64,000 bases of DNA from Aureococcus anophagefferens (taxonomy: Eukaryota > Sar > Pelagophyceae > Pelagomonadales > Pelagomonadaceae). Location of the stretch: contig NW_008705585.1 in the NCBI RefSeq assembly GCF_000186865.1, positions 93,953 through 157,952 on the forward strand, written 5' to 3'. Under the pieces are notes generated by a model. It searched no databases. It was not told the origin of the DNA and saw only the letters and a program-made list of their open reading frames with translations. Position 1 is the stretch's first letter; each line of letters begins with the position of its first letter. The translations under genes and the position numbers were made by a program. Of the stretch, positions 11,649 through 36,100 are shown in pieces.

Positions 11649-14600
11649 TTACAGGTAGAGGGAGCTCTGGGCGGCCTTGGTCCGCTTCTTGACCTCGCCG
11701 TACTGCGCGTTCCACTCGAGGACCTTGGCCATCTCCGGGCCCGAGTCCGCGACGGACGACGAGAGCTTCGCGATGGCCGCCTCGAAGTCGGCCGCGCGGG
11801 CCTCGCGGAGCTTCGGCGGGTCCAGCGCCGCGGCGCACTTGGCCTTGAGGTCGTCCGTCAAAGCGGTCGCTTCCAATTCGTCCGCGTGCTCGTGCGAGAT
11901 GCGGACCTGGGCAGCACAAGGGTGATTCAACGTCGCTTAAACGCGAGTGTTCCGCGCGCGCGCGTCACGAGAAAAACATCCACGCGTCGAGACCGTTCCG
12001 AGAGATGATCGCTCGTCCAAAAGTCAGCCGAAACGAGTGAAAAATGGCCGAGATCGGAGCCTTTGAAGTTGGGAATCTCGCTCTCTTGTGCTGCCCTGAT
12101 GCGGACGATGGCCTCGCGGCACACCTCCTTGCAGTCGCTGCCGCTGTAGCCCTCGAGCTTCGCGGCGACGCCGTCGAGGTCCACGGACGCATCCAGGCGG
12201 TTCCGCGCCAGCGTCACGTCGAGGATCGCGCGGCGCGACGCCTTGTCGGGGAGGTCGACCAAGACGCGCCGCGGCAGCCGCCGGAGCACGGCCTCGTCGA
12301 GGTCGTAGGGCCGGTTCGTCGAGCCGATCACCACGACGCGGTCCCGCGTCGTCTTGAGGCCGTCCCACTCCTGCATGAGCGTCGTCTTGACGGACGTCAA
12401 CGTGCCGTGGCTCGTGTCGTCGCCGCCTTCCCGCGACGACAGCACCGCGTCGATCTCGTCGAAGAAGACGACGCAGGGCGCGAGCTTCCGCGCCAGGGAA
12501 AACACGGCCTTGGCGTTCTTCTCCGACTCGCCGAGCCACTTGTTCTCGATGGCCGACGCGTCCACCGCGAGGAACGACGCGCCGCCCTCCGTCGCGACGG
12601 CCTTGGCGAGCATCGTCTTGCCCGTGCCCGGCGGGCCGAAGAGCAGCACGCCCTTGCAGGCCTCGCGCGCGACGCCCTCCTCGTAGAGCGCCGGGTACTT
12701 CAAGGGGTAGGTGATGGCCTCGCGGAGCGCGGTCTTGGCCGCGTCCAATCCTCCGATCATGTCGTACGTCACCGCGACCTGCGTGGATTCCAAATCTTCA
12801 ACCCGACTTCAATGCGCGCGTCATCGAACGGTTTGGACGAGACTCTTCGGCTGTGCTTCGAGAACTCGACGAGAGCGATCGATTCGTCCAAAAATCAGCC
12901 GAATCGACGTGGAAATGGCCGAGATAGAGAGTTCTGACGTTTGGTGGGGACCCCCCAAACCAGCGCTTGCAATCCACACCGACCGCGACGTCCGACGGCG
13001 CGACGACGTTGCCCAGCAGCGCCTTCTCGTGCTTGTCGAGCTCGCCCTCGGCGAGGCCGCCCGGCGCCTGGCCCCGGTCCCGCGCGGCCGCCAGCGCGTC
13101 GCCCAACGCGACGGCGACGGCCGCGGCGTCGATGGCCAGAGGCCCCGCGGTCCCGGCCCGCGGCGGCGCCGCGTCGCCGCGGCTCAGCTCGATCTTCAGC
13201 GCCGACAGCGCGACGCGGCGGCAGTCGTCGTCGCTCAGCGGCGCGGCGCAGAGCGCGTGGCCGATGGCGTCCAAATCCGTCGCCAGGCAGTTGGCCTCCA
13301 AGACGGCCGTGAGGCTCTCGCGGTTCCGCGACAGCGTGCCGCGGCGCTGCTCGTCGCGCGCCCACGTCTCCCAGTCGTGGCGCGCGAGGGCGTCCGCGGG
13401 CAGTGGGACGCGCACGTCGTCGACGGCCGCCGCGCACGCGGACACGGGGTCGCGCGGCGGCGGGTTCCGCTGCTTCGACGGCTCCTCGGCCTTCTTCTTC
13501 TTCGAGTGCAGGCCCATCCAGCGCATGAGCGACGCGGGCACGCGGAGCGGCGCGCCGCCGCCGCCCGGCGCGTCCTTGGCGCGGTCCAAAGTCGCCCGGA
13601 GCTTCGAGGGCGGCTCCTCCGGCGCCGCGTCGTCCGCGGGCGGCGCCTTGCCCACCGAGAGCGCGACGTGGACCATGACCGACGGGTCCCGCAGCATGGG
13701 GCCGCACTGGTCCGCGACGGCGCCCACGAGGCCCTCGTCGCCCAAAGCTTCCGCCAGCGCGGAGAGGTAGGCCTCGGACCGCGGGTCCCGTTCCTCGTCG
13801 GCCGCCTTCCGCGCCTCGGCCGCGACGCGCCGCGCGAGGTCCCGGAGCATGCTTTCGAAGGACCCGGACCGGTCGCTGTCGTCGGCGTCGCCGGCCTCGA
13901 TGCGGGGGAGGGGCGGCGGCGGCGGGCCCGCGGGCCGCGGCGGCGCCTCCGTCGACGCCGCGGGCGCGCCGTCGCCGTCCGCGAAGACGAGGAACGCGCG
14001 CGAGTCGTCGTCGTCGAGCTCGTCGAGCACGGCGGCGCAGGCGCCCTTGTGGCGGAGCACGCTCCGCGAGCCGTCGGCGAAGAAGACCACGGCCCTCTGG
14101 CCGTCGGCCGCGACGGCCGCGAAGAGCCCCCGCAGGAGCTTCTCCCTCGAGAGGCCCTTGCGCTTCTCGCCGCTGCCCGTGCCGCAGCCGAGGTCCAGGG
14201 CGAGGCGCCGCACGCGCCGCAGCGTGCCCTCCGTGATCTTCACGGTCGTCGCGCCGACGGCCGCGCCGAGCGCGGAGACCAAGGCCTCGTGGACGGCCGC
14301 GGGCGCTCCGGCCATCTCGAGCGCGACGCCGCGGCTCGCGCGGGGCAGCAGGGCGACGTGGGCCGCGTAGGCGCCGCGGTCGAAGGCGAGCTTCGCCTGG
14401 CCGACGAGGGCCGCCCGCGTCGACGGGGCCAGGAGCCGGTGCGCGTTCCGCGTCGCGTTCTCGGCCCCTTCCCTGAACTCGGATAAAAACCGCTCCCGCG
14501 ACTCGTGGCAGCCCGCGGCGATGCCCGAGCGCAGCAGCTCGCTCCGCCAGATGGCGAGGATGTGCTCGTTGTCGCCCGCGGGGTCCCCCTCGCTCGACGG

Positions 14601-14804
14601 GCCCGGGTCGGCGCCCGCCTCGACGACGTCCACGAGCTCCTCGAGGACGTCGAGGTCCGAGCCGCCGCGGACGCCCAGGCGCGATGCTTTCGGGTGCAGC
14701 GCGGTCGTCAGGAAGGGGAGGAGGAAGAAATACGCACACACCATCGATGAGACGCGCCGAAGGCCGCGCGTGCGCTCCATGACGCTGGAGCTAGTTTCCG
14801 CCAC
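11649..14804 (-). CDS. AAA-type ATPase (katanin/MSP1/plant DAA1-like clade), three exons with two introners
   Basis: Exons are 12990-14804, 12107-12778 and 11649-11906, all joined in phase 0, giving about 914 residues (894 if the ATG at 14744 is used, which starts a hydrophobic leader MVCAYFFLLPFLTTAL). The long N-terminal region is low-complexity and only partly conserved; it ends EKALLGNVVAPSDVAV, as in plant AAA proteins. The ATPase core has TYDMIGGLDAAK, Walker A GPPGTGKT, Walker B VVFFDEIDAVL, the arginine-finger region DEAVLRRLPRRVLVDLP and GYSGSDCKEVCREA. The C-terminal helix ends with WNAQYGE. Members remodel membrane or cytoskeletal protein complexes. Both introns interrupt conserved sequence, and removing them restores family alignment exactly. 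Confidence 0.85.
11907..12106 (-). mobile_element. Introner element as a 200-bp intron, third member
   Basis: The gene-sense intron starts with GTCCGCATC and ends with CCCAG; the same GTCCGCATC follows the 3' splice site (plus-strand copies 12098-12106 and 11898-11906), a target duplication of 8-9 bp whose GT serves as the 5' splice site. Just inside are terminal inverted repeats GGGCAGCACAAG and CTTGTGCTGCCC. The interior (about 12008-12060) resembles the elements at 12779 and 34493. Splicing yields CREAI joined to VRISHEHADEL, as expected for the AAA C-terminal domain. Confidence 0.88.
12779..12989 (-). mobile_element. Introner element: 203-bp insert plus 8-bp duplication forming a 211-bp intron
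   Basis: GTCGCGGT is present at both ends (plus-strand ACCGCGAC at 12982-12989 and 12771-12778). The first copy gives the GT splice donor; the element gives the CACGCAG acceptor. Terminal repeats are GGTGTGGATTGCAA and, inverted, GCGTGGATTCCAA. Splicing joins PSD to VAVTYDMIGG, matching plant homologues residue for residue. The sequence and length are shared with the element at 34493-34703 in an unrelated gene. Confidence 0.93.
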
Positions 14805-33137: not shown

Positions 33138-36100
33138 CTAGAAGCGCTCCATGGGGTCGATGGAGCCGACGAAGGCCTTGTAGTCGAAGAAGTCCTTGCC
33201 GACGGGGTGGAGGCCCTCGGGCACCTTGAACGCCTTGAAGAGCAGGTCGTTGTCCGTCGCCGTCGTCTTGAGCTGCATCTTGTCCATGACGGCCGCGAGC
33301 TGCTCCTTGCTGCAGCAGAGCCGGTTGTGCTTGTCGTAGTCCTGGAAGGAGGGTTTGAGGTGGAGGCGCCGCTCGGCGATGATGGTCCGGAGCTTGCCGA
33401 GCAGGGTCAGCAGCTGGGGGTCGCTCTCGCAGTGGTTCGCGCTCTCGATGGACGCGGGCGTGTGCTCGACGGGCCCCGCGTAGTGCGAGTTCTCCAAGGC
33501 CGTCACGAACGCGCGCCAGTTGATGCAGTCGCTGTGCTTCGAGGACTGGAAGCGCTTCGTCAGCGCCACGAGCGTCGCCTCGGTGAGCGTCAGGCCCGCG
33601 CGGCCCAGCGCGGACTTGAACCGCGCGATGGAGATCTCGCCGGATCGGAGCTTGTCGCCGTCCGTGAGGAAGTCCTGGAGCCGCGCGCGCCGCGCGGCGA
33701 GCTGGGACACCAGGTCGTCGATGACCGCGACGACGTCGACGACGGGCAAAGCGACGGACTTCTTGAGCCGCTTGCCCGTGGGGAACTCCTTCTGCTTGTC
33801 GCTGTGCGTGCCCGAGAAGCCGTGGGATCCCACGGACCCGATCAACGACAAAAACTTGTCGTAGTTGATGTCCGCGCTGCTCAGCGTGTCCCGCGAGTGG
33901 GACGCGACCGCCGCGAGGGAGAAGGGCGGCTTGTCGACGCACGACGCGACCAGCGCCGCGAGCTCGTCCGCGGACATCTCGCCTAGCAAGCCGACCATGG
34001 ACAGCACGCGGCGGAAGTGGGTCTCGCGCACGCGGCCCGAGTTCGCCTTGTCGAAGTCCTCGAAGAAGGGCTGCATCTCCAGGCCCTGGACCTTGACGAT
34101 GTGCGACAGCCGCGCGATCGCCGGCTGCGCGGCGTCCAATACGTCGTCCGTCGCGCCCGCGGTCAGCGACATGACCGTGGCGTCGTTCAGATCCTCGCCC
34201 GCGCGCGCCGCCGCCGTCTCCGCGGCGACGTCGGCCATGGGCCGCTTCTCCAGGCCCTCCGGCACGAAGACGCGGTCGACGTCCGTCACGAACTCGACCC
34301 ATTTCACGAACGGCATGCCGTGCGTGTCCAGCGCGCCGCCGACGGCCGTGTAGGCGTCGCTCAACACCTCCGCCTCCTCGGCGGACACGATGCCGTCGAC
34401 GGCGGCGCGCAGGCCCCGGTAGAACTGGGACCGCGTGACGACGCCGCGGTGCAACGGGTCGTCGTCGCGGAAGAACTCCTTGAGGCGCACGCCTGTGTGG
34501 AAATCAAATCTTCAACCCGACTTCAATGCGCGCGTAATCGACCGTTTCGACGCGAGGCTTTCTGCTGTGCTTCGAGAACTCGACGGGAGCAATCGATCCG
34601 TCCAAAAATCAGCCGAATCGACTTCGATTTGACGGAGCTAGAGAGTTCTGAAGTTTGGTGGGGACCCCCCAAACCAGTGGTTGATTTCCACACAGGCGGA
34701 CGCGGTTCTGGAGCACCTTCTGGCGCACGTGCTGGAGGAGCACGGGCGCCGGGCGCAGCGGCGGCACGTCCATCTCGCCCGTGGTTGATGTCGTGAGCGA
34801 CGGCAGCGACGCGGACATGGCCCTGGGGAAGCCCGTGGACCCGGGCGCGTCCGCGAGCGGGCTCGGCGCGGCCTCGTCCGCGGGGCCCAGGGGCTTGTCC
34901 GTGACGTCGCCGAGGAAGCTCCGGTAGTTGACGTAGTGGTCCGCCGGGTGGCGGCCGTCCTGCGCCGCGTACGCGGCGAGCAAAGCCTTGAGCTTCGCGC
35001 GCGTGTCCGGCAGGAGGCCAAACTGCGCGAGCACGCGCTCGAACTGGTCTCGGGTGACGTGCTCGTTGCGCCGCGGGTCGAAGTCCTGGAACGTGGGCAC
35101 GAGGAGCACGCGGCGCTTCTTGATCTTGTCGCGGATCTCGAAGAGGATGGCCTCGAGGCCCGACGAGGGCTTCGCGCACCAGCGCACGCTCGACGCCTCC
35201 TTCTCCGGGCCGCACAGGTCTGCCATGATGCCCTCGATGGCGTCCACGAAGGACCGCCAGGAGACGACGTCCGGCGCCGCGCGGTACTTCTCCGCGAGCG
35301 CGCCGACGGCCGCCGGCGACAGCTTCGTCGTGAACGTCCGCCGGAGGCCCTGGACGAACTTGGGCTCGGGGCACGTGCCGTGGCGCAGGGGGTCGAAATC
35401 CAGGAAGAACTCGGCGAGGCGGATGCGCCGCTCCGACACCTGGAGCGCGAGCTTGCGCTCCAGCCCCGCGAGCTCGCCGTCGCGGTCCTCGGCCCAGACC
35501 CTATAATCCTCCGCGTTCGCGTTCAGCCGTCCGGAAATGGACTTGGCGCGCCCGACCTCGCCGGCCTTGGGCGTGCCGATGTTGAAGGTCGACACGTGGC
35601 CCACGCCCAAAGCCTCGACGTCGGCCTGGAGCGCGCGGAAGTGGACGCCCTGGGGGACGGCGTAGGCGGACGCGAGCTGCTCCGCGGTCGTGTTCGTCAT
35701 GCGCCGGTGGAGCCGGTGGACGTTGCGCATGAACTCCGCCCGCGTGATGCAGCCGTCGTTGTTGTGGTCGAAGTCGACGAAGAAGTCCTTGATGACGACG
35801 CCCGACGCGGAGACCGACCGGCCCAGAGCCAGCAGCGTCTGCCGCAGCGCCGCGATGGCCGCGTCGTCGAGGCGCGGGTGGCGCAGGCCGATGCGCGAGT
35901 AGTAGATGGGCTCGTCGTCGAGCGCGAGCTTCACGGGGCTCAGGGGCGTCTTCTGGAGGCCCTTGATCGTGAAGACCTCGTCGACGTCGTCGCAGAAATC
36001 CGCGTAGCGCACCTTGCCCGGGTCCGAGGCGCTCGTGTAGTCGCCGACGAGGGCGTAGAGCTCGTCCTCGCCCACCGTCGCCATCTCCCGCGTCACGCCG

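Follow-up and report, generated by a model that had tools for sequence, protein, structure and literature searches.

Introner elements of Aureococcus anophagefferens were reportedly described by Huff, Zilberman and Roy in 2016 (Nature 538:533). Their findings are said to include insertion in both orientations and the co-option of splice sites (PMC10228655), and the elements of this species are described as having direct repeats and terminal inverted repeats (TIRs) of constant length (PMC7789003). A nucleosome-linker preference is also counted among the traits of these introners. Introner types have been classed by the source of their splice sites (PMC9860276), and two of the systems treated there are close to the present case. 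In Symbiodinium microadriaticum (Gozashti et al. 2022, PMC9860276), introners carry the 3′ splice site, take the 5′ splice site from the target duplication and have TIRs; their duplication is 4 bp, versus 8 bp here, a comparison of descriptions. Family 4 of Aureococcus sp. (PMC9860276) shares the genus and the 8-bp duplication, but is described as carrying both splice sites and adding 12 bp to the transcript, whereas the element reported here would take its donor from the duplication and add nothing. In a related alga, Pelagomonas calceolata, intron lengths peak near 210 bp according to PMC9481584, a likeness in length only.

We analyzed a stretch of 64,000 nucleotides of A. anophagefferens DNA, referred to below as the window, together with a genome of 49.05 Mb in 86 contigs. 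The sequence at 12779-12981 of the window is almost certainly a copy of an A. anophagefferens introner, i.e. a non-autonomous transposon that would be excised as an intron along with one copy of its target duplication. The system is thus already known in kind, as the introners of Huff et al. 2016 from the same species. In the available descriptions, these share with the present copies the species, a length near 200-211, direct repeats with constant-length TIRs, splice-site co-option and both insertion orientations. No difference between the two emerges: PMC7789003 mentions canonical splicing motifs, and the preponderance of GC over GT donors in the present copies agrees with the share of GC-AG introns reported for the species (PMC3033335).

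The window element, its target duplication and the predicted intron

The first-pass annotation had proposed that a DNA-transposon-like element with an exact 8-bp target duplication acts here as an intron. The duplication is borne out: identical 8-mers (ACCGCGAC, or GTCGCGGT on the minus strand) flank a 203-bp copy of a dispersed repeat and mark its ends. As a random control, identical 8-mers 211 bases apart were found at 69 of 500,000 window positions. Read on the minus strand, the layout is ...GCCGTCGGAC, followed by GTCGCGGT and the 203-bp element with the last bases CACGCAG, and then GTCGCGGTGACG... The range originally annotated, 12779-12989, is exactly the predicted intron, namely the element proper (12779-12981) plus the upstream duplicate. 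The TIRs claimed for the element are present, but in this copy they are imperfect, with 11 of 14 terminal bases matching.

The GT donor lies in the duplicate and the AG acceptor in the element, as had been proposed, and the predicted splice (junction 12990/12778, GGAC|GTCGCGGTG) is in frame as PSD|VAVTYD. The interrupted gene encodes an AAA ATPase and contains two introners with different termini, giving predicted introns of 211 and 200 nt. Predicted splicing that removes both yields an AAA ATPase of 906 residues with PSD|VAVTYD at the first junction. Exact removal of the second introner also produces a Pfam AAA_lid_3 match (residues 795-831) that extends across the second junction (residue 821), while the deposited gene model of this protein, P0121, has no AAA_lid_3 match at E<=0.001. 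The window holds a B-type copy and a family A copy in the ATPase gene and a further family B copy, whose ends are symmetric, at 34493-34695 (families are defined below).

Features of the window discussed in the text (minus-strand features; positions are those of the window)
Feature	Position	Strand	Remarks
Introner, family B type, 203 bp	12779..12981	(-)	Bears the AG acceptor at the 3′ end as read on the minus strand
Target duplication copy 1, GTCGCGGT	12982..12989	(-)	Intronic; source of the GT donor
Target duplication copy 2, GTCGCGGT	12771..12778	(-)	Exonic; opens the downstream exon (VAV)
Predicted intron, 211 nt, GT-AG	12779..12989	(-)	Element plus upstream duplicate
19-bp core, TCGGCTGATTTTTGGACGA	12884..12902	(-)	Y-containing pattern, 1959 genome matches
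Coding exon 1, AAA ATPase gene	12990..14780	(-)	Same first ATG as the deposited model
Coding exon 2, AAA ATPase domain	12107..12778	(-)	
Coding exon 3 with stop codon	11649..11906	(-)	
Second introner, family A+, 192 bp, CAGGGCAGCACAAG...CTTGTGCTGCCCAG	11907..12098	(-)	Same ATPase gene
Target duplication of second introner, copy 1, GTCCGCAT	12099..12106	(-)	Donor
Target duplication of second introner, copy 2, GTCCGCAT	11899..11906	(-)	Exonic
Third introner of the window, family B, CTGTGTGGAAATCAAC...TTTGATTTCCACACAG	34493..34695	(-)	Flanks GCGCACGC/GCGGACGC, 7/8 matching (plus-strand reading)

Copies in the genome fall into two families

The 19-bp core has 1959 exact matches genome-wide (985 + 974), while the reversed pattern, used as a control, has none. 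A similarity search with the window element returned at least 42 matches, namely: itself; at least 39 near full-length relatives, with 197-211 bases aligned at 87-91% identity; and two shorter fragments with 81% identity. The 30 loci taken from this search are biased towards the window copy and were excluded from the family counts. These counts come instead from a table of the first 100 listed of the 1959 cores, all on contig C1, in which both ends are readable in 93 copies; the remaining 7, with unreadable or mismatched ends, were dropped. Such a genome search with tabulated flanking 8-mers had been suggested with the original annotation, and it shows termini that are common to the copies.

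Among the 93 readable copies, the flanking 8-mers match at 8/8 positions in 72, at 7/8 in 11 and at fewer in 10. The 83 copies with at least 7/8 compare with 1.4 on average, and never more than 6 of the 93, in 1000 shuffles of the right flanks. Two lengths dominate, 192 bp (42 copies) and 203 bp (29 copies), and there are two bodies that have the core in common and are internally about 55-56% identical. Family A (CWGGGCAGSAMAAG, mostly 192 bp) accounts for 57 of the 93 copies, and family B (CTGTGTGGAAATCAA and variants, mostly 203 bp) for 36. With respect to the direction of predicted splicing, the body is found either way round.

Individual loci show further arrangements. At L067:626-890, two family A copies of the A- class (see below) lie about 245 bases apart, each with an exact 8-bp duplication of its own. 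L053:1818 is a family B copy shortened to 147 bp whose ends are intact and whose duplication is exact; copies with internal deletions of this kind may still be mobile.

Removal of the copies leaves coding sequence in phase

In family A, the duplication on the donor side starts with GT or GC in 52 of 55 copies (31 GC, 21 GT), versus 18 of 55 on the other side. For family B, where either end may serve and the test is therefore weaker, GT/GC together with AG is present on one strand or both in all 36 copies. For the coding phase, 180 bases on each side of a copy were estimated separately, using stop codons and the G+C content at third versus second positions. Of the 93 copies, 83 have a single usable orientation, 4 have two and 6 have none. 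After removal, 78 of the 83 with a single usable orientation are in phase; none of the 5 that are out of phase has a strong signal on both sides. Where the signal is strong on both sides, 73 of 73 copies are in phase after removal, versus a chance expectation of one third, and retention would leave 2 of 73 in phase; the test would equally accept a donor displaced by 3 or 6 nt.

A MAP-kinase-like gene at L061:3794-5167 contains three introners, in both orientations. When the middle one is removed (intronic duplicate GTCGCGCT, exonic duplicate GTCATGCT), the junction reads ...RAPEV|MLGFHHYG, which we take to be a kinase motif.

A donor matrix was built from 81 introner donors, selected for GT or GC at +1/+2, of which 56% are GC and 44% GT. 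At positions +3 to +8 there is little signal over a background rich in G+C (G is at 46% in +3 and in +6), and position -1 is C in 57%. The matrix, like the tally of TIR mismatches given below, derives from a 97-copy set de-duplicated on the central 99 bases, a step that leaves out three separate insertions, two of them from the A+/A- pairs described below. In PMC3033335, the GC-AG share of A. anophagefferens introns is reported as 39.6% and its information deficit as the largest, so that a weak donor is already known for this species.

Homologs and gene models across the junctions

Homologs were sought with the downstream exon as query, and the 120 listed (P0001-P0120) of 5372 above threshold were compared at the junctions. 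Among these 120, the first junction is gapless in 51 of 51 alignments that span it and the second in 106 of 106, in agreement with the proposed restoration of PSD|VAVTYD. In a full-length search with 11 homologs listed, the alignment is gapless in 6 of 9 cases at the first junction and in 1 of 7 at the second; the gapped alignments are those of P0121 itself and of ATPases of 35-37% identity.

Aligned to P0121, 'ATP binding protein [Aureococcus anophagefferens]', the protein predicted after splicing matches at 851 of 851 aligned residues; differences between the gene models account for 57 gap positions (49, 2 and 6). The host is thus A. anophagefferens by protein identity, and the match to its introners amounts to membership, more than analogy. 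The assignment to introners made by the first-pass annotation is accordingly supported by the host as well as by the copies, which have the same termini, 8-bp duplications and GT/GC plus AG.

Three relatives bear on the history of the two sites. The metagenomic protein P0122 (95% identical over 65% of the query) runs from PSDVAV directly into an introner, and the insertion at the first site is therefore common to P0122 and the window gene. P0001 (88% identical) is uninterrupted at the first site and, by our own reading, ends in introner-like sequence at or near the second; with such an end, its open reading frame was probably called without splicing. P0123 (56% identical) is uninterrupted at both sites, with the limit that this protein could come from a spliced model. 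The pattern fits either acquisition of the first introner since the separation from P0001 or its loss in P0001.

Position of the acceptor and covariation between the TIR arms

In family A, none of the 57 copies has the same base at position 2 of both TIR arms (the column make-up would predict 21.0, and 0 of 5000 shuffles are as low; the copies being related, neither this nor the class shuffle below gives a true probability). Exactly one arm reads CAG outward, i.e. as an acceptor, in 55 of the 57, and the other 2 are damaged. The acceptor lies at one end of the body in 34 copies (A+) and at the other end in 21 (A-). The nearest neighbour by internal sequence belongs to the same class in 45 of 55 copies (shuffle mean 28.6, maximum 40), and mean internal identity is 0.930 within A+, 0.924 within A- and 0.915 between them, with one column strongly different. 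In family B, both arms carry the acceptor in 24 of 36 copies, and the usable GY plus AG strand is core-antisense in 18, sense in 14 and both in 4.

Two A+/A- pairs have identical central 99 bases, namely: L040/L060 and L039/L067. Within the first of them, L040:1500 and L060:1500 have the same centre but different arms and acceptor ends, hinting that ends were exchanged between copies. With the classes partly separated and such pairs sharing a centre, the acceptor may have switched ends more than once, or ends may have been exchanged.

At other positions the arms covary. Family A arms agree at position 9 in 51 of 57 copies (29.1 expected), at position 11 in 50 (29.0 expected) and at position 15 in 32 (24.4 expected), while agreement at positions 7, 12 and 13 is as expected. 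Family B arms agree above expectation at positions 4, 6, 7, 8, 10, 11 and 12, and not at position 2. An RNA stem was considered as the cause and is unsupported: G-U and A-C mismatches between the TIRs are equally frequent in the 97-copy set (19 vs. 18), and the lack of a G-U excess argues against a stem and for a cause at the DNA level. The whole predicted window intron likewise folds no better than shuffled sequences (z 0.58). The covarying positions suggest a DNA-level process that keeps the arms alike while splicing keeps position 2 different.

We tentatively read these classes, with slightly less than even confidence, as one transposon body that serves as an intron-maker in two mirror-image forms, each spliced only in the direction dictated by its acceptor. 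An ancestral CAG...CTG element would need one base change, at either of its ends, to gain the acceptor, and this would also fix the gene orientation in which the insertion is harmless. No description of acceptor-end classes or covarying arms was found in the portions of the introner literature available to us, where Huff et al. 2016 is represented through citing papers, and the pattern is possibly a new detail.

Transposase, autonomous partner and viral carriage

Profile searches of the genome with PF05699 (hAT) and PF18758 (KDZ) gave no match; neither did those of the control genomes, so these results are little informative. PF10551 (MULE) and PF12762 (IS1595/Merlin-like) gave none in the genome either, with matches in 3 and 1 of 14 control genomes, respectively, and with the limit that intron-split genes could be missed.

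On contig C6, two ends that face inward over 1.37 kb were considered as a candidate autonomous partner and rejected, as they belong to a MAP-kinase-like gene with three separate introners and not to a single long element. Termini patterns that are not followed by the usual body gave 22 matches (reversed control 6) and 12 matches (control 0). Five of the 22 were examined, and comprise three introner variants, L131 and L132, the last being a terminus with no recognisable body. At L131:193-420, a family-A-type terminus stands on a different, internally repetitive body, which is possibly another element family or a chance match. Carriage by a virus was likewise rejected: one viral contig has a core match, yet no introner ends surround this core and its open reading frames look, by our own reading, like phage structural genes, so that we take the match to be due to chance.

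Discussion

MITEs of the hAT superfamily have 8-bp target duplications and termini that start with CAG/CTG. The window family has both, from which we infer a hAT-like class of transposase and a possible hAT origin. The events at the ATPase gene would then be as follows. A short non-autonomous cut-and-paste DNA transposon (MITE-like) would have landed in the coding sequence, with duplication of GTCGCGGT. Of the two copies of this 8-mer, the upstream one would provide the 5′ splice site, GT here and GT or GC in other copies, and the last bases of the element would supply CAG. The spliceosome would then remove exactly one duplicate together with the element, leaving the coding sequence unchanged. 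Both the splicing of 12779-12989 and the cut-and-paste movement are here deduced from DNA.

Transposons do insert into introns, and a single copy alone would be compatible with an old spliceosomal intron in which a MITE landed later. In the window, however, the predicted intron equals the element plus one duplicate to the base, the introns of the family defined in this way are in phase in all 73 copies with a strong signal on both sides, and P0001, by our reading, is uninterrupted at the first site, all of which makes a pre-existing intron highly improbable. It is also very unlikely that the introner is an RNA-level element spread by the reverse splicing of an intron. Such spread would likewise yield many near-identical introns, and it has been proposed for fungal introners that lack TIRs and duplications (PMC9860276), but most readable copies here have 8-bp duplications and inverted termini, their bodies lie either way round with respect to the direction of predicted splicing, and the tally of TIR mismatches gives no sign of a conserved paired RNA. 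That the insertion is simply retained and translated can be put close to zero: the upstream frame does stay open for 63 codons past PSD, but it then meets a stop, the intron lengths of 211 and 200 are not divisible by 3, and retention would cost the gene its downstream ATPase frame.

A less drastic alternative keeps the introner and places the true donor 6 nt further in (GTCGGT), which adds two residues (PSDVAVAVTYD). This donor is the one used by P0121, and by the general eukaryotic donor consensus GTCGGT looks better than GTCGCG. Nevertheless, all 51 homologs spanning the junction (among the 120 listed of 5372) score higher with PSDVAVTYD than with PSDVAVAVTYD, and the 81-donor matrix gives the inner donor 1.4 bits versus 4.9 for the first GT, a comparison that is partly circular because the 81 donors were defined at that place. 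Furthermore, P0121 lacks 6 residues at the second junction as well as 49 elsewhere, and is thus unreliable here. We therefore consider the inner donor unlikely, at a small but appreciable probability, and retain the introner with its donor at the first GT of the duplicate.

It is documented that introners can give rise to thousands of introns quickly, and the ATPase locus offers a clean worked example of this, with two introners of different termini in one conserved gene, a relative in which the first site is uninterrupted and a splicing rule that can be read from the DNA. The example also illustrates that a deposited model can misplace introner junctions, as in P0121, which is without six residues and without the lid-domain match. 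Finally, the acceptor-end classes, if indeed undescribed, would give a direct view of how selection for splicing shapes the ends of a transposon.
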